DNA of 40,360 nucleotides, from the NCBI GenBank assembly GCA_015055975.1, contig SVHF01000018.1:1-40360 (forward strand), read 5' to 3'. Both the position numbers and the translations under genes were made by a program. The notes beneath the pieces were generated by a model. The model saw only the letters and a list, made by a program, of their open reading frames with translations. It had not been told where the DNA came from and made no database searches. Positions 14,464 to 37,830 of this stretch are shown piece by piece (positions within the stretch are counted from its first letter, which is position 1; each line of letters begins with the position of its first letter). The stretch comes from Clostridiales bacterium (GTDB lineage Bacteria > Bacillota > Clostridia > Christensenellales > UBA3700).

Positions 14464-15420
14464 TTATACGTTTGTTAAATCGTCATTTTTAAATGTGCCT
14501 TCACTAACATCATCTATTGAATGTTTAATTAAGGCTTTTCTTTCCTTCTTTGCTGCTTTCAATTCTGCTTTTCTATCAATTTGTTCTTGATAAATTGGCT
14601 TGAATGAACCAACAAATCCAGATGCAGATTTCATCATACTTCCACTCATCTTTGGAGTGATTCTTGGCATAACTCTCATACCTAGAGACATAAGCTTTGC
14701 TAAGAAATCTGTGAAGAATCTAATCTTGCCTTTACCAAGTGCTTTTACAATTCTTCTTCCGGCTGTTTTAGCTGTAATTCCTACTGATTCAACCATTGAG
14801 TCAGCCTTGTTCTCTTTTTCGCCTTCACGAGCCTTATAAATATCTGTCTTTACTGGCCCTGGCATTACGCAAGTAACTTTAATATTAAATCCTTTTAGCT
14901 CTTGAGCTAAACATGTTGTTAATCCCCATACTCCAGCCTTTGTTGCTGAATAGATAGATTGTCCACCAAATGGCAATATTGATGATGCTGAAGCAACGTT
15001 ACAAATAGCACCAAATTTGCTCTTTTTGATTGTTGGGATGAAAGCTTTGCATCCATATACAACACTCAATAGATTTGTATTAACAATCTTCATAATTTGA
15101 TCATCTGTCATATCGTTGAATTGTCCGAATGGTTGAATCATACCAGCATTATTGATAAGAATATCTGTCATGAATCCCATATCCTCTAATTCTTTTGCAA
15201 AATTATGCCATTCTTCTTGTGATGAAATATTAAATCTTCTATATGAAAACTTGTCGCCAAGTTCAGCTTTAAGTTCATCTAATTTTTGTTTATTTCTTGC
15301 AACGCCCATAACGTTACAACCATATTTTTTAACCAATATTAAAAGTACTTCTTTACCCATTCCAGTTGAGCATCCAGTAAGTACAACATTTCTTCCGTAT
15401 AACCAATCTAGTTTTCCCAT
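14464..15420 (-). CDS. Short-chain dehydrogenase/reductase family oxidoreductase
   Basis: TGCSTGMGKEVL cofactor motif, NNAG, YSATKAG catalytic YxxxK. Start moved to MGKLDWLY, preceded by GGAGG. Confidence 0.9.
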   Translation of the reverse strand: MGKLDWLYGRNVVLTGCSTGMGKEVLLILVKKYGCNVMGVARNKQKLDELKAELGDKFSYRRFNISSQEEWHNFAKELEDMGFMTDILINNAGMIQPFGQFNDMTDDQIMKIVNTNLLSVVYGCKAFIPTIKKSKFGAICNVASASSILPFGGQSIYSATKAGVWGLTTCLAQELKGFNIKVTCVMPGPVKTDIYKAREGEKENKADSMVESVGITAKTAGRRIVKALGKGKIRFFTDFLAKLMSLGMRVMPRITPKMSGSMMKSASGFVGSFKPIYQEQIDRKAELKAAKKERKALIKHSIDDVSEGTFKNDDLTNV

Positions 15421-15436
15421 AGGTTCCCTCCAAGTC

Positions 15437-15468
15437 ATTAATGTAATTTACTCTAATTTTACATTAAT
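15437..15468. promoter_or_regulatory. Operator-like inverted repeat overlapping the SDR promoter
   Basis: ATTAATGTAA-N12-TTACATTAAT, perfect 10 bp arms; overlaps candidate minus-strand TTAACC-17-TAAAAT. Confidence 0.5.
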
Positions 15469-15563: not shown

Positions 15564-16766
15564 TTAGCCTTCGATCTTAGATACAACACCTGAACCAACT
15601 GTTCTTCCGCCTTCACGAATAGCGAATCTTAATCCTTCTTCGATAGCGATTGGTGTGATTAATTCGATTTCCATAGCTACGTTATCACCTGGCATAACCA
15701 TTTCAACGCCTGCTGGAAGCTTGATTGAACCTGTAACGTCTGTTGTTCTGAAGTAGAATTGTGGTCTGTAACCATTGAAGAATGGAGTATGACGGCCACC
15801 TTCTTCTTTCTTTAGTACGTATACTTGAGAAGAGAACTTTGTATGTGGGTTGATTGTACCTGGCTTAGCAAGAACTTGTCCTCTTTCGATACCAGATCTA
15901 TCGATACCTCTTAGAAGAGCACCGATATTATCACCAGCATAAGCTTCGTCTAATAACTTTCTGAACATTTCAAGACCTGTGATAGTTGTTTCAACTGTAG
16001 GCTTAATACCAACGATTTCAACCTTATCTTGAACCTTAACGCATCCTCTTTCTACTCTACCTGTAGCAACTGTACCACGACCTGTGATTGTGAATACGTC
16101 TTCTACTGGCATTAAGAATGGCTTATCTGTATCTCTTTGTGGAGCTGGGATGTATGTATCAACAGCATCTAGTAATTCTTGGATGCAAGCACAAGCTGGA
16201 TCGTCAATTCTTCCTTCTGTAGCAGCATTTAGAGCTAGTAAAGCTGAACCCTTGATGATAGGTGTTTCATCACCTGGGAATCCGTACTCTGTTAATAGAT
16301 CTCTGATATCCATTTCAACTAAGTCTAGTAATTCTGGATCGTCAACTTGATCTGTCTTGTTCATGAATACAACGATATATGGAACGCCTACTTGTCTTGC
16401 AAGTAAGATGTGTTCTCTTGTTTGTGGCATTGGACCATCTGTAGCAGCTACAACTAGGATAGCGCCATCCATTTGGGCAGCACCAGTAATCATGTTCTTA
16501 ACGTAGTCAGCGTGTCCTGGGCAGTCAACGTGTGCATAGTGACGTGTTGCTGTTTGGTACTCAACGTGAGCTGTGTTAATTGTGATTCCTCTTGCCTTTT
16601 CTTCTGGAGCCTTATCGATTTGATCATATTTCATACCTTCAGCGAAGCCCTTAGCAGCAGAATACATTGTAATAGCGGCTGTAAGTGTTGTCTTACCATG
16701 GTCAACGTGACCAATTGTACCGATATTTACGTGTGGTTTACTTCTTTCAAATTTAGCCTTAGCCAT
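15564..16766 (-). CDS. tuf: Elongation factor Tu
   Basis: 400 aa; [44 protein letters not shown]. Confidence 0.99.
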
Positions 16767-16831
16767 TTTAAATATCCTCCTAATAATTGTGATAATTATT
16801 TTTTACTTTTTATAAAGTTTTCACTTTTTTA

Positions 16832-16860
16832 ATTTTATTATTTTTATAATAATTTGTCAA
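16832..16860 (-). promoter_or_regulatory. Internal tuf promoter in the fusA-tuf gap
   Basis: Minus strand TTGACA (16860-16855), 17 bp, TAAAAT (16837-16832). Confidence 0.7.
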
Positions 16861-16899
16861 TATAGGAAATGGGCGCGTGCCCAAATCCTATACTAATTG

Positions 16900-18996
16900 C
16901 TAGTTTTTCTTTGCAGCAGCTCTTTCGCCGATAATCTTTTCAGCTACGCTCTTTGGAACTTCAGCATAGTGTGAGAATTGCATTGAGAAGTTACCACGAC
17001 CTTGTGTAGAACCACGAAGTTCTGTAGCATATCCGAACATTTCTCCTAGTGGTACATCAGCGTCAACAACTTGAATACCATTTCTGTCTTCTGTTGTCTT
17101 GATGTTTCCTCTTCTTCCTGAAATTGTTCCAAGAACTGTTCCAAGGTATTCATCTGGAGCTACAACTTCTACTGACATGATAGGCTCAAGTAAAACTGGG
17201 TTAGCTCTTGAAGCACCATCTTTGAATGCCATAGAACCTGCGATTTGGAAGGCCATTTCTGAAGAGTCTACTTCGTGGTAGCTACCATCAACTAAGTCGA
17301 TGTTGAAATCTACCATTTCATATCCTGCTAAGATACCGCCTTGAGCAGCGTCTCTAATACCCTTTTCAACAGCTGGGATGAATTCCTTTGGAATTGAACC
17401 ACCAACAGTTTTATCAACGAATGTAATGCCCTTTCCTGGTTCGTTTGGTGATAGAACAACTTTACAATGTCCGTATTGACCTTTACCACCAGATTGTCTC
17501 TTGAATAGACCTTCTGCATTAACTGTTTGCTTGATTGTTTCACGGTAAGCAACTTGTGGGTTACCAACATCTGCTTCAACCTTGAATTCTCTCTTTAATC
17601 TATCAACGATGATATCCAAGTGTAATTCACCCATACCAGCGATGATTGTTTGACCTGTTTCTTGATCTGTGTATGTCTTGAATGTTGGGTCTTCTTCAGC
17701 TAACTTTTGTAGAGCTAAGCCCATCTTTTCTTGACCAGCCTTTGTCTTTGGCTCGATAGCGATTTGGATAACTGGTTCTGGGAATTCCATACTTTCTAGA
17801 ACGATTGGATGGTCTTCATCACACAATGTGTCACCTGTTGTTGTATCCTTTAATCCTACGATAGCTACGATGTCGCCTGCATGTGCTTCATCAATTTCTG
17901 TACGGCTGTTAGCGTGCATTCTAACTAGACGACCAATTCTTTCTCTCTTGTCCTTTGTAGAGTTATATACGTATGAACCCTTTTGAAGAACACCAGAATA
18001 TACTCTGTAGTATGCTAACTTACCAACGAATGGGTCAGCAGCAATCTTGAATGCTAAACCAGCTAGTGGTTCATTATCATCTGAATGTCTAACTTCTGTT
18101 AATTCCTTGCTTCCTGGAAGTGAACCTTCAACTGGTGGAAGATCAAGTGGAGATGGTAGATAATCAACTACAGCATCTAGTAATAATTGAACACCCTTGT
18201 TTCCTAAAGATGTACCACAGAAACATGGAGTCATCTTCATGCCGATTGTAGCCTTTCTTACAACTGGCTTAATCATTTCAGGTGTAATGTCATCATATTG
18301 TTCATCTAAGAATAACATCATGATGTCATCATCTAAGTTAGCAACAGCTTCTAGCATTCTCATTCTGTATTCCTTAGCACCTTCTAAGTACTTTTCTGGA
18401 ATAGGTCCTCTAACGATGTTAACACCGTTGTTACCTTCAAAATGAACTGCTTCCATTGTTAATAAATCGATAACACCTTCGAATTCCTTAGCACTACCCA
18501 TTGGGTATTGCATTGGAACTGCGTTTGCATTTAATCTCTTGTTCATCATGCCCATTGCTCTTTCGAAACTAGCATCATCTTTGTCCATCTTGTTAACAAA
18601 GGCAATTCTTGGAACATGGTATTTTGTAGCTTGGTGCCATACTGTTTCAGATTGTGGTTCAACACCACCTCTAGCACAGAACAAAGCAACAGCACCATCT
18701 AGAATACGTAAACTTCTTTCAACTTCTACTGTGAAGTCAACGTGTCCTGGGGTATCGATAATATTGATAACGTTACCTTTCCAGTGTGTTGTTGTTGCGG
18801 CAGAACAAATTGTAATACCTCTTTCTTGTTCTTGTTCCATCCAGTCCATAGTAGCAGCACCATCATGAACTTCACCTATCTTATGGTTGATACCTGTATA
18901 GAATAGGATTCTTTCTGTTGTTGTTGTTTTACCAGCATCGATGTGAGCCATGATACCGATATTTCTTGTATGGTCTAATGAATATTCTCTAGGCAT
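16900..18996 (-). CDS. fusA: Elongation factor G
   Basis: 698 aa; [54 protein letters not shown]. Confidence 0.99.
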
Positions 18997-19028
18997 ATAT
19001 TTTTTCTCCTAAATAATTTGTCGCTATA

Positions 19029-19499
19029 TTAATAACGATAGTGTGCGTAAGCCTTATTAGCTTCAGCCATTCTTTGCATTTCTTCTTTCTTCTTAACTGC
19101 ATTACCTGTGTTATTGAATGCGTCAATAAGTTCAGCAGCAACTCTTTCCATCATAGTCTTTTCGCCTCTCTTTCTTGCTGAAGCTACTAACCATCTGATA
19201 GCTAAAGTTTGACGTCTAGCTGGTCTGATTTCACAAGGTACTTGGTATGTAGCACCACCTACTCTTCTAGCCTTAACTTCTACTTCTGGTGTAGCATTTG
19301 CTAAAGCCTTTGTGAAAACGTCAACTGCGTCTTGTCCTAACTTATTGTTAACTATATCGAAAGCTCCATAAACGATTTCTTGAGCAGTTCCTTTCTTACC
19401 ATCATACATAACTTGGTTGATGAACTTAGCAATAACCTTGCTTCCGTAAGTAGGATCTGGTAGAACGTCTCTAACTGGAACGCTATTTCTTCTTGGCAT
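19029..19499 (-). CDS. rpsG: Ribosomal protein uS7
   Basis: 156 aa; [36 protein letters not shown]. Confidence 0.98.
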
Positions 19500-19543
19500 A
19501 TTTATTACCTCCTTAATTAGATTGTTGTGTTGCGTGCATCCGA

Positions 19544-19915
19544 CTATTTAGGTCTCTTTGCGCCGTATTTAGATCTGGCTTGCTTTCTCTTAGCAACGCC
19601 TGCACAGTCAAGTGTTCCACGAATAATGTGGTATCTAACACCTGGCAAATCTCTTACTCTTCCGCCTCTGATAAGAACTACGCTGTGTTCTTGTAAGTTA
19701 TGGCCTTCACCTGGAATGTAAATTGTACCTTCCATACCATTAACTAGACGAACTCTTGCAATTTTTCTCATAGCAGAATTTGGCTTCTTTGGTGATGTTG
19801 TAGTAACAGATAGACAAACGCCTCTCTTTTGAGGATTTTGCTTCATGATAGGTGTTGTGCTCTTTGCTACTTGCTTTTCTCTACCAGCCTTAAGTAACTG
19901 ATTGATTGTTGGCAT
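19544..19915 (-). CDS. rpsL: Ribosomal protein uS12
   Basis: 123 aa; [57 protein letters not shown]. Confidence 0.99.
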
Positions 19916-20075: not shown

Positions 20076-20133
20076 ATTAATATATATTAAGTCAAACGAA
20101 ATTATTAATTTTTTAAAATGATAAAAATTTATA

Positions 20134-20152
20134 TGTAAAATATATGTAAAAT
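20134..20152. repeat. Paired TGTAAAAT direct repeat (11 bp period), str operon copy
   Basis: TGTAAAATATATGTAAAAT. Confidence 0.6.
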
Positions 20153-26370: not shown

Positions 26371-28581
26371 TTATTGATTAAATTCGGCCTCTTGTCTTAA
26401 GAAAGTTAAAAGCATAGAATTACGCTTAATAATTATATTATTAGAAATCATTTTTGCAACAGTTTGCTTAGTCCCAAGAATAACAACAGCCTTTTTGCCA
26501 CGAGTAATTCCTGTATATAACAAATTCCTTGTTGCAAGCATTGGGTTGTTTTCAAATAAGACTAATAAAACTACTTTAAATTCACTACCTTGAGATTTAT
26601 GAACAGTTATAGCGTATGCAAGTTGGACTTCATCAAAATCTCCCATGCCATATTTAACGAATCTATTATCGTCATATTCAACAAGCATTTCTTTATCATA
26701 TGGGTCTACTTCTCTAACTATACCCATCTCTCCATTAAATACGCCCTTTCCAGATTTCCCATCTGGAGTTGTCCAAATAAGTTCGTAGTCGTTTTTAATG
26801 TGAATGACTTTGTCATTAGGTCTAAATTTTCTAAGTCCCACAACAAGCTCTAAATCGTCTTGTTTTGGATTTAAAATCTCTTGCATTTGCTCATTTAATT
26901 TATCTATCCCAGCAAGGCCTTTTTTTGCTGGTGCTAGAACTTGGATATCATCTTTAGATACTTTAAAGTATTTTGGTATTCTTGTAGATAACAAGTCTGT
27001 TAAAGTCTTTGCTATATCTTTATTCAATTCTGCATTGATAAAGAAGAAGTCTGTTGCCTTATTATCAAGCTTAATCATTCTTCCAGCATTTACTTCATGA
27101 GCATTTATTGAAATCATTGATCCATCGTCTTGCCTAAATATTCTATTTAAAAAGCTTACAGGTATTACTTTTGAGTTAATCATGTCAGATAAGATGTTGC
27201 CAGCACCAACGGATGGTAATTGATCTTTATCTCCAACAAATATTACTCTTGCTCCTGGCTTTATAGCATTTAGAAGCGATTTCATAATATATGTATCACA
27301 CATCGAAACTTCATCGACAATAATTACATCTTGAGAAAGATTATTTGTTTCATCAAACTTAAATCTAAAGAAACCATCTTCAACCGTTAATCCTAACAAT
27401 CTATGGATTGTTTGAGCATCATAACCCGTTGATTCTCTCATTCTCTTTGCCGCACGCCCTGTTGGTGCACACAATGCAAATGTTTTATGAATGCCATTTA
27501 GCATAGCAACTATTGCCTTTATAATTGTAGTTTTACCAGTTCCTGGTCCACCTGTAATTACAGAAACGCCATATATCAAACTATTTTTAATAGCTTCTAT
27601 TTGCTTTTCATCTAGCGTTATACCATTCATTTCTTGATAGATTTTCAAATCCGTATCTATATCCATCAAGAAGATATTTGTATTATTTGTACATAAAGAT
27701 ATTAACTTTTTTGCAATGAACTTTTCATGGTCGTATAAAATACGAGACATTATTATTTCTTTGCCTTCAACTTCAAGAGATATAACTTCGTTATCTTTTT
27801 CGCATTTTCTTAAACATGTTTCGACTAAATCTTCATCAAACGTTCTATCTAAACCTAAAAGATCTATTGCTCTATTTAATAAATCTCCATGGAATAAATA
27901 GGTGTGTCCCAATTTATCTGCAACGTCAGTTACGGTATACATAATGCCAGCGCGAACTCTTTGCTCGCCCTTTACTTCATAACCCATCTTAAGCGCAATC
28001 TTATCTGCAGTCAAAAAACCAAAGCCATCTACGTCTTTTATTATCTGGTATGGATTAGCTTCCAAAACTCTCTTTGTATCGTCTCCATAAGCCTTATATA
28101 GCTTCAAAATGGTATTAATGCTAAGTTCATGTGCTTGAAGTTCAATAATTAAATTCTTTAAAAAGATAAGATTGTTAAATCTATCTACAAGCTCAACTGC
28201 TCTATCATAGCTTATGCCTCTTACTTGAGATAATTCTTGTGGGTTTGTTGATAGAACTTCAAAAGTTCTTTTGCCAAACTTTGATACAATCTTTTTTGCG
28301 GTAACATCTTTGATGCCTCTAAATAAACCTGAGGCTAAATATCTAACCATGTCTTCTTCCTCATCCGGAAGTAAACATGCACATTTTTCAACTTTAAATT
28401 GTTCGCCGTATTTAGGATCTTGAATAAAATCTCCATCTACAACGACTCTTTCCCCTTCATATAAATCAGGAAAATAGCCGACGCATGTTATTATCTCTAT
28501 GTTCGTGAAAACATTTACTATTGTATAGCCTGTTTCATTATTAACATAGATTACGTCAACTACTTCCCCTTCTAATCTCAT
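26371..28581 (-). CDS. recD2: RecD2/TraA-like 5'-3' DNA helicase
   Basis: 736 aa; N-terminal domain plus GGPGTGKTTIIKAIVAML, IIVDEVSMCD, FVGDKDQLPSVGAGNIL, AYAITVHKSQGSEF. Confidence 0.95.
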   Translation of the reverse strand: MRLEGEVVDVIYVNNETGYTIVNVFTNIEIITCVGYFPDLYEGERVVVDGDFIQDPKYGEQFKVEKCACLLPDEEEDMVRYLASGLFRGIKDVTAKKIVSKFGKRTFEVLSTNPQELSQVRGISYDRAVELVDRFNNLIFLKNLIIELQAHELSINTILKLYKAYGDDTKRVLEANPYQIIKDVDGFGFLTADKIALKMGYEVKGEQRVRAGIMYTVTDVADKLGHTYLFHGDLLNRAIDLLGLDRTFDEDLVETCLRKCEKDNEVISLEVEGKEIIMSRILYDHEKFIAKKLISLCTNNTNIFLMDIDTDLKIYQEMNGITLDEKQIEAIKNSLIYGVSVITGGPGTGKTTIIKAIVAMLNGIHKTFALCAPTGRAAKRMRESTGYDAQTIHRLLGLTVEDGFFRFKFDETNNLSQDVIIVDEVSMCDTYIMKSLLNAIKPGARVIFVGDKDQLPSVGAGNILSDMINSKVIPVSFLNRIFRQDDGSMISINAHEVNAGRMIKLDNKATDFFFINAELNKDIAKTLTDLLSTRIPKYFKVSKDDIQVLAPAKKGLAGIDKLNEQMQEILNPKQDDLELVVGLRKFRPNDKVIHIKNDYELIWTTPDGKSGKGVFNGEMGIVREVDPYDKEMLVEYDDNRFVKYGMGDFDEVQLAYAITVHKSQGSEFKVVLLVLFENNPMLATRNLLYTGITRGKKAVVILGTKQTVAKMISNNIIIKRNSMLLTFLRQEAEFNQ

Positions 28582-29768
28582 TAAAGCTCCTCAATCGCTT
28601 TTTTTATCTCTTCTACTTTATCACACTTTTCCCAAGGTAAATAGTCCTTTCCAAAGTGTCCATAGTTTGTAGTTTTAGTAAAGATAGGCTCTCTTAAGTG
28701 CAAATTCTCAATAATTGCAAGAGGTCTAAAGTCAAAGACTTTATAGATTATCTTTGAAATGTCTTCATCAGAAATTGTACCTGTTCCAAATGTGTCTACT
28801 TGAATTGAAACTGGGTGAGCTACACCAATTGCGTAAGCAACTTCGATTTGACACTTTTGAGCAAGTCCTGCAGCAACGATGTTTTTGCATGCATATCTTG
28901 CCATATAAGCTGCAGATCTATCTACCTTTGTTGGATCTTTGCCCGAGAAAGCTCCGCCACCATGTGGACAATATCCACCATATGTATCTACGATGATCTT
29001 TCTTCCAGTTAAACCACTATCGCCATGTGGTCCACCGATAACGAACTTTCCTGTTGGGTTAATAAAGATTTTTGTATTGTCTGTAATTAATTCCTTTGGA
29101 ATTACTGCATCAATAACATATTCTTTAATATCTTTTCTTAATTGTTCTGTTGTAACGCAATCACAATGTTGAGTTGAAACAACAACTGCATCAACGCCAA
29201 CTGGTTTGCCATCTTCATATACAACAGTTACTTGTGCCTTGCCATCTGGTCTTAGATATTTTAAAGTTTTATTCTTTCTAAGCTCTGTTAGCTTTCTTGT
29301 TAATTTGTGTGCAAGAGAAATTGGCATTGGCATTAATTCTTCTGTTTCTGTACAAGCGAATCCAAATACCATACCTTGATCGCCAGCCCCGATTAAATCG
29401 AATCTGTCTTTTCCATCTTCTTTATTCTCAACAGATGAATCAACGCCTTGTGCAATGTTAGGAGATTGCTTTCCAACTCTAACTTCAACAGTACAAGTAT
29501 TACCGTTGAATCCTTCGCAAGAGCCATCATATCCTATATCCAAAATAGCTTCTCTTGCTATTTTTTCATAGTCAATTTCTTCAGCTGCTTTAGAAGTAAC
29601 TTCTCCCATAAGTAACACAAAGTCTGTTGTACAACTTGTTTCTAGTGCTACTCTAGAGTTTGGATCTTTTGCAATCAATGCATCTAAGATTGAATCAGAG
29701 ATTCTATCGCTGACTTTATCTGGATGTCCTTCAGTTACGCTTTCGCTTGTAAATAAATATTTTTTCAT
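28581..29768 (-). CDS. metK: S-adenosylmethionine synthetase
   Basis: 395 aa; [62 protein letters not shown]. Confidence 0.99.
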
Positions 29769-29817: not shown

Positions 29818-29911
29818 ATTCTATCTTTCAAGTAATCTTGCAGGATTTAGCACCTTTCGAGAGGTTGCTGTGCGATCATTGGGCCTGTCCCTCCCGCACT
29901 CTCTATAGAAT
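29818..29911 (-). ncRNA. SAM-I (S-box) riboswitch upstream of metK
   Basis: Minus strand ATTCTATAGAGAGTGCGGGAGGGACAGGCCCAATGATCGCACAGCAACCTCTCGAAAGGTGCTAAATCCTGCAAGATTACTTGAAAGATAGAAT; P1 ATTCTAT/ATAGAAT; conserved GAGGGAcxGGCCCxATGA, CAGCAACC, AAGGTGCTAAxTCCTGCA, TTGAAAGAT. Confidence 0.96.
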
Positions 29912-29932: not shown

Positions 29933-32900
29933 TTAGTCTACATCCTCAAGAGCAAACTTATCTGTGATTTCTTGCTCATTGATTCTGTTCATCTCTGATG
30001 CCTTAGATACTGTTGTTACGTCTCTATAGCACTTCATACCTGTACCAGCTGGGATTAACTTACCAATGATGATATTTTCTTTCAATCCCTTTAAGTGGTC
30101 AACTTTACCCTTCATAGCTGCATCAGCAAGCATTCTTGGTGTTTCTTGGAATGATGCTGCAGATAAGAATGATTCAGAAGATAGAGATGTCTTTGTAATA
30201 CCTTGAAGTATTCTAGCACCAAGTGCTGGCTCACCTTCAGATGCAACAACCTTTTGGTTAGTATCCTTGAATGTTTGGAAGTCAACGATATCACCAACTA
30301 GGAATCCTGTTGTACCAGCTTCTGTAATTCTAACCTTGCTTAGCATTTGTCTAATAATGATTTCCAAGTGCTTTTCGTTGATTTCAACGTTAGATGTTTC
30401 GTATGTCTTCTTAACTTCAGAAATGATGTAGTTTTGAACAGCAGCAATACCCTTTGTTCTTAACAAATCTTGTGGGTAAATGTTACCTTCAGTAATTCTA
30501 TCACCAGCTTCGATTGTATCACCAGTCTTAACTAGGATCTTTCTGTTGTAATCGATTACATACTTTTCTTCTTTAGCTTCACCAGTAATAGCATCTTTAC
30601 CAGATACGTATACAACTCTGCTTGTTCCTTCTTCAACAGTTACCTTACCAGCGATGTTAGAGATAACAGCTTGACCTTTTGGTCTTCTTACTTCGAACAA
30701 TTCTTGTACACGAGGAAGACCGTTTGTGATATCACCTGTTGTAGCAACACCACCAGTGTGGAATGTTCTCATTGTTAACTGTGTACCTGGTTCACCAATT
30801 GATTGAGCTGCGATAATACCAACAGCTTCACCAACTTTAACGATGTTACCAGAAGCTAAGTTCATACCATAGCACTTAGCACATACGCCATCTTTGCATT
30901 GGCAAGATAGATTTGATCTAATCTTAACTGACTTAATACCAGCCTTATCAATCTTCTTAGCATCTTGTAGCTTAATCATTGTGTTGTTTTCAATTAGAAC
31001 TTCGCCGTTTGCATCAACAACATCTCCGATTACGAATCTACCATTTAGCTTTTCGATGAAGTTTTGACCAGCCTTACCATTTAGAACAACTTCGTTGTTA
31101 CCCTTTTCTGTTTCAACTGGAATTCTTGCAATCTTAGCGTTGTAGATTTCAAGAGCCTTAGCTTCGTCGATAACTGTTCCCTTCTTGAACATTACAGAAC
31201 CATCTTTTCCTGTGATGTCAGCAAGTAACTTCTTATCTACGATTGCTTTGTATAATTCGATTAAGTCCATGTTCTTAACTTCAACACCTGACTTATCTCC
31301 ACAGTCTTCTTCTGTTACAACAACGTGGTGACATACATCAACCAAACGTCTTGTTAAGTAACCTGAGTCGGCTGTCTTTAAAGCTGTATCGGCCATACCC
31401 TTACGTCCACCGTGTGCTGAAATGAAGTATTCCAAAACTGATAGACCTTCTCTATATGATGATTTAATTGGAAGCTCGATATCTTTACCTGATGTAGATG
31501 CGACGATACCTCTCATACCGCAAAGTTGTGAAATCTGTCCGATACCACCACGGGCTCCTGATTCAGCCATCATCCAAATTGGGTTGTATACATCTTTGTT
31601 ATCTTCAAGTAACTTAGAAACCTTATCTTTAGCTTCTGTCCAAATCTTGATAGTTTCATGATATCTTCTGTCTTCAGAAACGATACCCATTCTTTGACCT
31701 CTTTCGATTTGTTGTACTTGCTTAGAAGCTTCTTCTAGGATTTCTGCCTTATCTTGAGGAACGTGCATATCGAATACTGATGCTGTATTTCCTGAAATTG
31801 TAGAATACTTATATCCGATTGACTTGATGTTATCCAAAACGATTGCTGTTTCTGTAGCACCCTTAGCTGCGAATACCTTATCTACGATTACAGATAATTG
31901 CTTCTTACCGATTCTTGAGTTGATCTTGAACTCAAATGTTGCGTTGTTATTCTTATTAACAACTTGCTTCTTGCTATCTTCTAGCGCGCCTGTATCAATA
32001 CCATAATAGATATCTTGAGGAATTGCTTCATTGAAGATGATCTTACCAACAGTTGTTCTAACTCTCTTAGAAACTGTTCTGCCTAGTTCATCTTGCTTTT
32101 CAACTCTTACTTCAATTTCTTTTTGTAAAGAAATTTGCTTTAATTGATAAGCCATCTTAGCTTCTTCAACATTTCTAAATACTCTTCTTTCTGAAGACAT
32201 CTTTTCTGGATTTTCATCCATTGTTAAATAGAAGCATCCGATAACGATATCTTGTGATGGAGAAACAACTGGTTTACCATCAGAAAGCTTTAAGATGTTG
32301 TTTGTAGATAGCATTAAGAATCTAGCTTCTGCTCTAGCTTCAAGTGATAGTGGTACGTGAACAGCCATTTGGTCACCATCGAAGTCGGCGTTGAACGCTG
32401 TACATACAAGTGGGTGAAGTTTAATAGCTCTTCCTTCAACGATAACTGGCTCGAAAGCTTGAATAGATAATCTGTGTAGAGATGGAGCACGGTTCAATAG
32501 AACTGGGTGATCCTTAATTACTTCTTCTAGAATATCCCAAACTTCAGCTGATGGGTTAACGTCGATTAACTTCTTACCGCTATGGTTATTTGTAGCTAAT
32601 CCTCTTGCGATTAATTCGTGTAGAACGAATGGTTTGAATAATTCAAGAGCCATTTCTCTTGGAAGACCGCATTGGTACATCTTTAATTCTGGTCCTACGA
32701 CGATAACTGAACGTCCTGAGAAGTCAACACGCTTACCAAGTAAGTTTAGACGGAAACGACCTTGCTTACCCTTTAGAGACTCTGTTAATGACTTAGCCTT
32801 CTTGTTGTTTGTTGTGATGGCCTTGCCACGTCTACCATTATCGATAAGAGCGTCAACAGCTTCTTGTACGATTCTCTTTTCGTTTCTTAAGATAATTTCT

Positions 32901-33736
32901 GGAGTACCATACTCTAACATCTTCTTTAGACGATTGTTACGCATGATAACTCTTCTATATAAGTCGTTTAAGTCTGATGCAGCAAACTTACCACCATCTA
33001 GTTGAACCATTGGTCTTAAATCTGGTGGAAGAACTGGAAGAACATCTAGAACCATCCATTCTGGCTTGTTACCTGATGTTCTGAAAGCTTCAACAACTTC
33101 TAATCTCTTAATAGCCTTTAACTTTGCTTGACCTTCTTTAGCTGTAGCGATAGTTTCTTTTAAAGCTGTAGCTTCAGCATCTAGGTCGATGTTCTTTAAT
33201 AATTCTTTAACTGCTTCACCACCCATTCCTACTTTGAATGCGTCTGCGCCGAATTCGTCGCAAGCTTCTAAGTATTCTCTATCATCGATGATTTGCTTAT
33301 AAGCAAAAGATGATTGACCTGGGTCTAAAACAACGTATTTTGTGTAGTAAACTACTAGTTCTAATTCCTTTAGAGGAATGTCTAGTAATTGGCTCATTCT
33401 ATATGGAGCACCCTTTAAGTACCAGATGTGTGTAACTGGACAAGCAAGTTCAATGTGGCCCATTCTCTCACGTCTTACAGATCTTGCAACAACGTCAACA
33501 CCACATCTATCACAAGTGATGCCTCTAGCCTTCATTTTCTTATACTTACCGCAAGCACATTCGTAGTCCTTAACCGGTCCAAATATTCTTTCGCAGAACA
33601 AACCGCCCATTTCTGGCTTTTGTGTTCTGTAGTTGATTGTTTCAGAATTTACAACTTCACCATGTGACCAACTTCTAATTGTTTCAGGAGAAGCGATTCC
33701 TATCTTTATTGCACTGAAATTATTTACATCTGCCAT
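29933..33736 (-). CDS. rpoC: RNA polymerase beta' subunit
   Basis: 1267 aa; zinc motif [42 protein letters not shown]. Confidence 0.99.
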
Positions 33737-33754
33737 TTTTCTATTTCTCCTTTA

Positions 33755-36700
33755 TTAGTCGTTAGCGTCATCGCTACCGTTGAATTGAGATAATAATTCG
33801 CTGATATCACCTGCGCCGATATCGTCATCATCATCTTCGCTACTAATAATATCTGTAGCGTCTTGCATTGAGTCGCTAGATGTATTGAAATCCAATCCTA
33901 ATCCGATGTCTTCATCTTCGTCATCCAACTTGAATTGAGCACCTAAATCGATTGATTCTGTTGGCTCGTCTGTTGAGTATGAAGTTTGATGCTTTGTAGA
34001 TGTTACTGTTGTTGTATCTGTGTAATCTCTAATACCAACTTCTTCACCGTTATCGTTTAGAACCTTAACTTCCAAACCTAAAGCCTTGAATTCCTTCATT
34101 ACAACCTTGAATGATTCTGGTGTACCAGCTTCTGGAATTGGGTTGCCCTTTACGATTGCATCGTAAACCTTTTGTCTTCCCATTACGTCGTCTGACTTGT
34201 TTGTCAAAACTTCTTGTAGGATGTGAGAAGCACCATAAGCTTCTAGAGCCCAAACTTCCATTTCACCGAAACGTTGTCCACCGAATTGTGCCTTACCACC
34301 TAGAGGTTGTTGTGTAATTAATGTGTACTTACCAGTAGATCTAGCGTGCATCTTTTCATCAACCATGTGGCATAGCTTTAACATATACATGTAACCAACT
34401 GTTACTGGGTTTTCGAATGGTTCACCAGTTCTGCCGTCATAAACAGTGAACTTACCATCTTTCTTTGGATCATGCTTTCCATCAACAGCAAGGTTGATAT
34501 CTGAATTCAATCTTTCGTCTTGGAATAGAGTCTTGATATCTGATTCTGTAGCACCATCGAATACTGGTGTAGCAACCATCATACCAAGCTTCTTAGCAAT
34601 ATATCCTAAGTGAACTTCTAAGACTTGTCCGATGTTCATACGTGAAGGAACGCCTAGTGGGTTTAACATGATTTGTAATCTTGTTCCATCTGGTAAGAAT
34701 GGCATATCTTCTCTTGGAAGAACTCTTGAAATAACGCCCTTGTTACCGTGACGACCAGACATCTTATCACCGACACCGATCTTTCTCTTTTGAGCAACGT
34801 AAACTCTTACTAACTTAGTTACGCCTGCTGGTAGGTCATCTTTTTCTTTCTTTGTGTATACCTTAACATCGATAACAACACCTGATTGTCCGTGTGGTAA
34901 GCATAGAGAAGAATTCTTAACTTCCTTACCCTTTTCACCAAAGATTGCTCTCATTAACTTTTCTTGTGGTGTTAAATCAACTTCACCCTTAGGGCTTGTT
35001 CTACCAACAAGGATATCTGATGAATCAACAGCTGTACCGATTCTTACAATACCGTTTTCATCAAGATTCTTTAATGCAGCTTCACCAACACCTGGAATAT
35101 CACTTGTGATTTGTTCATCACCACGAGATGTATTTCTAGATGTAATTTCGAACTTTTCAATATGTAGAGATGTGAATACATCATCTTTTACTAAGTCTTC
35201 GTTAATGATGATAGCGTCTTCGTAGTTGTATCCTTCCCAAGATGTGTATCCGATAAGGATGTTTCTACCTAATGACAATTCACCATTGTTTGTAGCAGGA
35301 CCATCAGCAAGTACCATACCCTTAAATACCTTATCGCCCTTATTTACGATTGGCTTTTGATTGATACATGTACCAGCGTTAGATCTTTCAAACTTTTGAA
35401 GATATACTGTTTCATCTCCGTTTTCTGTTTCAATAACGATTTTTGTAGAGTCAACAAACTTTACAACACCATCGAATTTAGAAATAGCTAGAACGCCGCT
35501 ATCGTAAGCAATCTTGTGCTCGATACCAGTAGCGATCATAGGAGCTTCTGTTCTTAGTAGAGGTACAGCTTGACGTTGCATGTTAGAACCCATCAATGCA
35601 CGGGCTGTATCGTCGTTTTCAAGGAATGGGATAAGAGCTGAAGCAACTGAAATTAATTGCTTTGGAGAAACATCTACATAATCTACCTTGTCGATGTTAA
35701 CTTCACGAATATCTTCCTTGATTCTACACATAGCACGGTTTTGTACAAATGTGCCATCTTCGTTAAGTGGTGTGTTAGCTTGAGCTAAGATGTACTTATC
35801 TTCATCATCAGCTTGTAGATAATCTACGACATCTGTAACATATGGTGTTCCATCTTCTTTCTTAGCAACTCTTCTATATGGAGCTTCGATGAAGCCATAT
35901 TCGTTGATTCTTGCATAAGAAGCAAGTGATGAAATAAGACCAATGTTTTGACCTTCTGGAGTTTCGATTGGACATAGACGACCATAGTGTGTATGGTTAA
36001 TATCACGAACTTCGAAACCAGCTCTTTCTCTGTTCAAACCACCAGGTCCTAAAGCAGATAACTTTCTCTTGTTTGTTAATTCTGCAGCTGGGTTATGGTG
36101 ATCCATAACTTGAGATAATTGGTTTGTGCAGAAGAATTGTCTAATAACCATGGCAATTGCTCTAACATTTAAGAATTGTTGAATCTTGTATTCATCATTC
36201 TCGCCTGTTCTTGACATGTTTTCCTTGATTGTCTTATCAAGTCTTGCCATACCTTCTCTGAACTTTTGTTGTAATAATTCACCTACGCAACGAACACGTC
36301 TGTTTGCTAAGTGGTCGATAATATCTGTAACACCGATACCATGAACTAAACCTAAGTTGTTGCTGTATGATGCAAGGATATCATCAACTGTTAAGTGCTT
36401 AATGATAAGAGCATCAACATTAGCCTTGATTTGTTCTTTTAATTCATCGCCCTTGAATTGAGCCATTAATTCCTTCAATGCAGGTAGATATACCTTTTCA
36501 TTGATTCCTAACTCTTCAGCGTTGAATTCTGGAAGTACAGCATTGAAATCTACAACGTTGTTACCACGAACGATAACTACTTGTGGTTTTTCTTCTTTAG
36601 ATAAAACTTTGATAGAAACGATACCAGCGTTTTGAATCTTGTCAGCATCTTCAGCTGTCAAAACTGTATCCTTTTGGCAAATTACTTCACCGTTTTCATC

Positions 36701-37603
36701 TATAGCATCTTCAGCTAAAGCAAATCCAACTACTCTTTGAGCATAAGATAACTTCTTGTTTACCTTATATCTACCTACTCTCATTAGGTCATATCTCTTT
36801 TCGTCGAAGAATAAGCCTTGGATTAATCTCTCAATTCCTTCTTCTGTAATTGTTTCGCCTGGACGTTGCTTTCTGTATAATTCTGTCTTAGCTTCAGCAA
36901 TATTTGTAGCTGAGTCCTTTTCAATTGTGTTTTCTAGAAGCTTTTCATGTCCGAACGTAGCATATAATTCTTCATTTGTTCCTTCCTTTAGTAAGCAACG
37001 AATTAATACAGTTGATGGGAATTTACGTCTTCTATCTACATAAACTGAAATTGTTTCTGTTGGATCTTGTTTGAATTCTACCCATGCACCTCTATGTGGC
37101 ATTATTTGTGTAGAATATCTTGGCATACCAGTCTTTTGATCCTTTTCGAATGTGTTGTAAACGCTAGGGCTTCTTACTAATTGGCTAACAACTACACGTT
37201 CAGTTCCGTTAATAATGAATGAACCTGCTTCTGTCATCTTAGGAATTTCACCCATGTATACATCATCTTCTAAGCATTCACCAGTGCTTGTGTTTACAAG
37301 TCTGATTCTAAACTTTAGAGGAATTGTGTAAGAACGTTCACCATCTTTACATTCTTTGATGGTGTACTTTGGTGTGCCATCTAGGGAATAACCTAGATAA
37401 TGTAGCTCAAATCTTCCAGCTCTATCTACAACTGGTGAGAAATCGTTCAAAACTTCTTGGATTCCTTCAGAGACAAATCTCTTGTAAGAACCAACTTGAG
37501 CTTCAAGCAAATATGGCATTTCTAGAACTTCTTTAATATGAGAGAAAGAATCTCTAACTGTATTGCCGTATTTAACTTTATGAGTCATATTGTTTTGAGG
37601 CAT
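33755..37603 (-). CDS. rpoB: RNA polymerase beta subunit
   Basis: 1282 aa; [56 protein letters not shown]; acidic low-complexity C-terminal tail. Confidence 0.99.
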   Translation of the reverse strand: [1282 protein letters not shown]

Positions 37604-37683: not shown

Positions 37684-37712
37684 AATTTACACGCATTTAA
37701 TATAGGTGTCAA
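37684..37712 (-). promoter_or_regulatory. rpoBC promoter
   Basis: Minus strand TTGACA (37712-37707), 17 bp, TAAATT (37689-37684). Confidence 0.75.
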
Positions 37713-37749
37713 ACGATTTTTTCAACATTTTCAAAACAATTTTTTGAAT

Positions 37750-37768
37750 TGTAAAATGTATGTAAAAT
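37750..37768. repeat. Paired TGTAAAAT direct repeat (11 bp period), rpoB-proximal copy
   Basis: TGTAAAATGTATGTAAAAT. Confidence 0.6.
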
Positions 37769-37811: not shown

Positions 37812-37830
37812 TGTAAAATTTATGTAAATT
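37812..37830. repeat. Paired TGTAAAAT direct repeat (11 bp period), rqcP-proximal copy
   Basis: TGTAAAATTTATGTAAATT; one mismatch in the second unit. Confidence 0.55.

Follow-up and report, generated by a model that had tools for sequence, protein, structure and literature searches.

Introduction

The synthesis of ribosomes and RNA polymerase is usually ascribed to control by ppGpp, by initiating-nucleotide levels, and by leader RNAs; few dedicated promoter operators are described for these operons. Among described operators, the PHO box consists of two 11-nt direct repeats, each with 7 conserved and 4 less conserved positions (PMC4415409). In PHO boxes of PhoB/PhoP, the unit is CTGTCAT in E. 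coli and GTTCACC in S. coelicolor. The WalR/YycF regulator is assigned the consensus TGTWAH-N5-TGTWAH (PMC4168254; PMC10746227), and a WalR site upstream of the -35 element is associated with activation (PMC10746227). WalR/VicR boxes occur in Bacillus, Staphylococcus, and Streptococcus, and WalR of S. aureus activates rplK, which is a ribosomal-protein gene.

In this study, we analysed a repeat with the unit TTTTACA. It resembles PHO boxes in having two 11-nt direct repeats, in its PhoB-like candidate regulator (C21), and in the identical box found upstream of pst-phoU-phoB-phoR in related families. It differs in its targets, which are the S10, rpoBC, str, and lipoprotein operons, and in that the C21 gene is unlinked to phosphate genes. 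The position of the site upstream of ribosomal-protein and RNA-polymerase operons suggests a two-component regulator rewired to the growth machinery. Leader RNAs (L10, S10-Clostridia) and ppGpp control the same operons, whereas the predicted operator would add a layer at transcription initiation, upstream of the promoter. In the open-access literature, nothing relevant was found on a response regulator at the S10 operon, on the TGTAAAAT repeat, or on regulon rewiring.

Materials and methods

The window is the whole stretch of DNA that was analysed (40,360 nucleotides) and corresponds to contig C11 of a MAG from an uncultured lineage of gut bacteria (G000; 1.59 Mb, 98% complete). The closest named RpoB relatives were uncultured Clostridia MAGs (91 and 88%) and "Christensenella sp. 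UBA3700" (71%); therefore, the family under comparison is probably the GTDB family UBA3700 within Christensenellales. The family set comprised 34 genomes, each at least 90% complete. The labels fusA and tuf were given by position and size only; the fusA start was read in G003, a genome of the same genus. The screen for regulators covered OmpR-family members only.

Results

Three exact sites in the genome

The exact pattern TGTAAAAT-N3-TGTAAAAT matched three times across the 1.59 Mb of the genome, and the matches precede rpsL (str), rpoBC, and rpsJ (S10). Markov models of order 1 to 4 predicted 0.0001–0.0003 matches in the window and 0.005–0.013 in the genome, and the reversed pattern had no match genome-wide. 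The preliminary description had reported the two tandem pairs of the window and their 11-bp period. Both are present, in the same orientation, upstream of minus-strand operons (Table 1), and the gaps to the -35 elements given there were reproduced on recomputation. It had also proposed a genome-wide motif count; three exact matches against about 0.01 expected contradict a chance frequency. The distal rpoB box and the S10 copy were absent from that description. The S10 copy lies on another contig (L001), upstream of an rpsJ gene recognized by Pfam, and has the same orientation to its operon as the rpsL and rpoB copies. With up to one mismatch, seven sites were found genome-wide, and six of these belong to rpsL, rpoB (two boxes), rpsJ, lipoA (contig 38), and a lipoprotein gene (contig 27).

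Table 1. Location of the predicted operators, their promoters and operons, and the candidate regulator gene.
Feature	Position	Strand	Sequence	Remarks
str (rpsL) operator, predicted PHO-box type	20134..20152	-	window strand TGTAAAATATATGTAAAAT; coding strand ATTTTACATATATTTTACA	exact match; kept in G003
rpoBC proximal operator, predicted PHO-box type	37750..37768	-	window strand TGTAAAATGTATGTAAAAT; coding strand ATTTTACATACATTTTACA	exact match; genus-wide
rpoBC distal operator, predicted	37812..37830	-	coding strand AATTTACATAAATTTTACA	one mismatch; 62 bp upstream of proximal operator
rpsL promoter -35	20090..20095	-	TTGACT, part of TCGTTTGAC	38 bp from operator; consensus match only
rpoB promoter -35	37707..37712	-	TTGACA, part of TCGTTTGAC	37 bp from operator; consensus match only
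str operon	15564..19915	-		rpsL, rpsG (Pfam S12, S7), followed by two ORFs that read as fusA and tuf
rpoB and rpoC	29933..37603	-		rpoB 33755-37603 (Pfam); rpoC 29933-33736 (position and size)
C21 gene	contig 21, 156..857			PhoB-like OmpR/PhoB-family response regulator; own histidine kinase encoded alongside

The extended -35 element TCGTTTGAC is common to the rpsL, rpoB, and rpsJ promoters and occurs only twice in the window (20091-20099 and 37708-37716). A two-mismatch box at 15445-15463 (minus strand), just upstream of an SDR-like gene (14464-15438), is probably a chance match.

Conservation and distribution in the family

The 34 family genomes contained 67 exact matches and none of the reversed pattern. 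Across 72 distinct exact family sites, identity was 0.99 within the site, against 0.36-0.38 for the flanking bases, and 69 of the 72 had A at the middle spacer position, which the search pattern left open. Twenty-nine of these sites lie at rpsJ, 12 and 6 at two large-lipoprotein families, 5 at rpoB, and 2 at rpsL. The rpsJ sites have one orientation throughout and mostly lie 229-245 bp from the S10 start, and the box is reversed at all 12 promoters of the first large-lipoprotein family. When rpsJ upstream regions were taken without selection, 31 of the 34 genomes were assessable; 26 had an exact box and 3 a box with one mismatch (29/31), and the box was absent from the rpsJ upstream regions of both genus g4 genomes.

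The preliminary description had proposed that the rpsL and rpoB upstream regions be compared in relatives. The boxes are kept within the genus, but nearly all other genera are without them, which rules out the rpsL and rpoB sites as family-wide. No rpsL box occurs outside the genus among the family genomes compared. The rpoB box is double and genus-wide, with a spacing between proximal and distal boxes of 40, 51, or 62 bp in relatives, and other genera show a few scattered upstream matches only. S10 is thus the family-wide core target: the str copy does not extend beyond the genus, the rpoBC copy hardly does, and both are in essence additions made at the genus level. Earlier, the pair had been proposed as a regulator binding site for RNA-polymerase and translation operons; the reading is strengthened in that the site is above chance, is kept in relatives, and marks a third such operon, S10. 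Coordination of the S10, str, and rpoBC operons by the shared operator may be inferred from this distribution.

Triple tandem units, with three copies in 11-bp steps, were seen at L382:4412-4441 (an nptA promoter of G234) and in L066 (G009).

Spacing and helical phase

At all 33 S10 promoters, the gap between box and -35 was 8-9, 19-21, or 29-31 bp, and the three classes are one helical turn apart (Rayleigh R = 0.92 at 10.5 bp, a statistic that ignores shared ancestry). Genera g1 and g6 each contain more than one class; therefore, gap changes arose repeatedly. The one-turn steps imply that a bound protein would be held on one helix face relative to RNA polymerase, as for an activator, and thus that activation would be face-dependent. 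The equal distance to the -35 element claimed for the two boxes of the window held for rpoB (36-37 bp across the genus) but not for rpsL, where the gap changes by two turns between two species (38 bp here, 59 bp in G003). The rpoB and rpsL boxes are roughly one third of a turn off the S10 phase. The distance from box to promoter shows no phase at the lipoprotein genes, probably because the lipoprotein promoters could not be placed. Overall, boxes lie 8-77 bp from the -35 element. At the phosphate promoters of other families, the -10 element was at box start +50, +50, +51, and +50 (four of six cases); these values are matched by the nearest S10 class (+50/51).

Box type and link to phosphate genes

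The box is composed of two head-to-tail 11-bp units, TTTTACA-N4-TTTTACA, with about 7 conserved and 4 variable bases, which is the structure of a PHO box. Among 270 genomes of the order that lie outside the family, 20 matched, with 24 matches against 5 for the control. There, the exact box was found upstream of pst operons (5 genomes), nptA (3), and a PiT gene (1), and the neighbourhoods fetched were pstSCAB-phoU-regulator-kinase (phoB-phoR) or nptA-regulator.

No linkage of the box to phosphate genes was found in this genome or its family, as judged from the pst promoters read and the nptA upstream regions. The family nptA upstream regions are without the box. A pst-phoU-PhoB locus is kept in some members, and its promoters in G018, G019, G021, G028, and G030 have CTTACA-type repeats. 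The family pst promoters that were read have CTTACA-type (CTTACA-N5-CTTACA) or other boxes, not the TTTTACA box. A search of G000 for PhoU-domain genes returned only an nptA-type protein. Because this linkage was looked for and not found, the operator in this genome should not be classed as a Pho regulon. It appears to work like a PHO-box-type operator with rewired targets, and by descent it probably is one.

Candidate regulator

C21 was found in all 34 family genomes. Its phospho-acceptor Asp is retained, and its recognition helix is near-invariant. Searches with C21 in six genomes that have the box at a phosphate operon each gave, as the best homolog, the regulator of that same operon (43-50% identity). 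G000 has four clear OmpR-type regulators, of which only C21 falls in the PhoB-like clade with box-linked PhoB proteins (100/99 support). Its helix, ETRTLDMHIKSLRSK, resembles the box-linked ETRTVDMHIKTLRQK, and the pst-linked regulators read in the family (G018, G019, G021, and close relatives) have ETRALDMHIAEIRLK, not ETRTLDMHIKSLRSK. Against the NCBIfam PhoB profile, C21 scored 213.8 bits (cut-off 296.2). We regard as likely, with some confidence, a PHO-box-type operator that was reassigned from phosphate to growth genes and has C21 as its most likely regulator; binding of C21 to the boxes, taken by itself, is probable from these comparisons.

In seven of eight fetched regions, C21 is surrounded by a histidine kinase gene, a ManA-like isomerase gene, and a Sua5/YwlC-like gene, with no pst genes; given these neighbours, a pst-linked role of C21 in phosphate regulation was rejected for the family. 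In genus g4, C21 is present with nearly the same helix, yet the S10 box is absent. This pattern agrees with a basal lineage in which the regulon was never acquired; it agrees with another regulator too. The promoter of C21 itself has a two-mismatch box in G000 only, and TTTACA in that promoter mostly resembles a -35 hexamer; conserved autoregulation was rejected.

Many lipoA boxes adjoin the gene of a different response regulator, C38a (contig 38). A real operator owned by C38a, which is encoded directly upstream of the box-carrying lipoA, is an unlikely alternative. Sites frequently adjoin the gene of their regulator, and genera g1, g5, and g6 have the box between the C38a response-regulator (and kinase) genes and lipoA. 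However, no close ortholog of C38a was found in G005, G008, G018, G020, G023, G024, or G031, all of which have S10 boxes, and G006 and G007 have diverged homologs only (47-48%). The absence of a close ortholog from several S10-box genomes rules out C38a as the only regulator. Its helix, TVTEVYVSNLRK, is also unlike those of the box-linked regulators, and in several g6 genomes C38a has Glu in place of the phospho-acceptor Asp and lacks an adjoining kinase gene.

The C38a ortholog of G000 is at L330:4980-5669. In L109, L110, L111, L113, and L116 (G034, G022, G027, G025, and G033), C38a reads YDLVVTELILP instead of YDLIVLDLMLP. With Glu at this position and without an adjoining kinase in several g6 genomes, C38a is a natural, phospho-mimetic-looking orphan regulator upstream of lipoA. 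lipoA (L330:1-3522 in G000 contig 38; also L332, L333, and L334) carries the box downstream of the C38a genes and encodes a lipoprotein of >1,100 aa, for which no Pfam match was found. Near lipoA, g6 genomes also encode a secreted SH3/NlpC-P60-like protein.

Relation to WalR, UP elements, and chance

The operator could also belong to a WalR/YycF-type cell-wall regulator, tying envelope growth to ribosome synthesis in the manner of WalKR and rplK in S. aureus. As TGTAAA-N5-TGTAAA, the box exactly fits the WalR consensus, the candidate belongs to the OmpR family as WalR does, and surface lipoproteins are among the co-targets. The fit is offset by the lack of an ortholog: the four clear OmpR-type regulators all fall short of the NCBIfam YycF cut-off (NF040534, 340 bits), C21 with a score of 168.8. 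On this ground WalR was rejected as the owner in spite of its consensus. Moreover, the exact box marks phosphate operons in relatives, not cell-wall genes, and in this lineage it is found at S10, str, and rpoBC. We consider a WalR-type owner quite unlikely.

A phased A/T-rich UP element or curved DNA that touches the RNA polymerase alpha subunit would need no regulator, and the AT-richness, the 11-bp period, and the position upstream of strong promoters agree with it. An UP element is A/T-rich and has a fixed place just upstream of the -35 element; the boxes have no such fixed place. They have invariant TGT/ACA positions, occur in both orientations, and lie as far as 77 bp from the -35 element. 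Furthermore, few promoters carry the box, none of the rRNA or tRNA promoters of the window does, and phosphate operons are marked elsewhere. This makes such an element very improbable.

Chance similarity in AT-rich DNA has a negligible probability: in the window, sites with up to three mismatches are weakly above shuffles (7 seen, 3.0 expected), a count that is not decisive, but the family holds 67 matches to 0 for the control, and the site was kept while its flanks diverged. The AT-rich background, which had been named as the main caveat, fails as a cause, given that both orientations are used, the flanks diverge, and phosphate operons are marked in other families.

Discussion

We return to the C21-bound, PHO-box-type operator. 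Phosphorylated C21 would bind both units as a tandem dimer, on one helix face, upstream of the -35 element. Once bound, it would help RNA polymerase to start the S10, str, and rpoBC operons and the genes for the large surface lipoproteins. Activation of the target promoters by C21 is probable, at a lower confidence than binding, because the boxes lie upstream of the -35 element, a position associated with activation in the case of WalR, and hold phase at S10. In evolutionary terms, the regulator and its box probably moved together from phosphate genes to growth genes, to S10 in the family except for one genus, with rpoBC and str added as targets in the present genus. The full picture is one that we favour slightly: a rewired PhoB-like regulator would couple the transcription of the ribosomal (S10, str) and rpoBC operons with that of large surface lipoproteins, and the pst genes would stay, in those relatives that retain them, under a second PhoB whose helix and box are both altered.

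If true, a two-component operator common to S10, str, and rpoBC would let a membrane sensor feed directly into the synthesis of the growth machinery. The lineage would then allow the rewiring of a regulon to be traced: the same box stands before phosphate genes in neighbouring families, before S10 in this family, and before rpoBC and str in a single genus. The rewiring would be accompanied by a matching split of paralogous regulators, which have different recognition helices and different boxes.

Several RNA elements were seen at or near these operons. The S10 leader looks conserved family-wide (GGGATGAAGCGGGAGGTTAC...), and the family may hold a diverged member of the S10-Clostridia leader; in a relative, a sub-threshold match to RF03136 (29.9 vs 35.1 bits) lies between box and rpsJ (L046:1351-1425, minus strand). 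In the window, an L10 leader (RF00557; 11135-11268, minus strand) lies upstream of the rplJ-region genes, which are without the box. A SAM riboswitch (RF00162, 78 bits; 29818-29911, minus strand) lies upstream of the gene at 28581-29768, which reads as metK.
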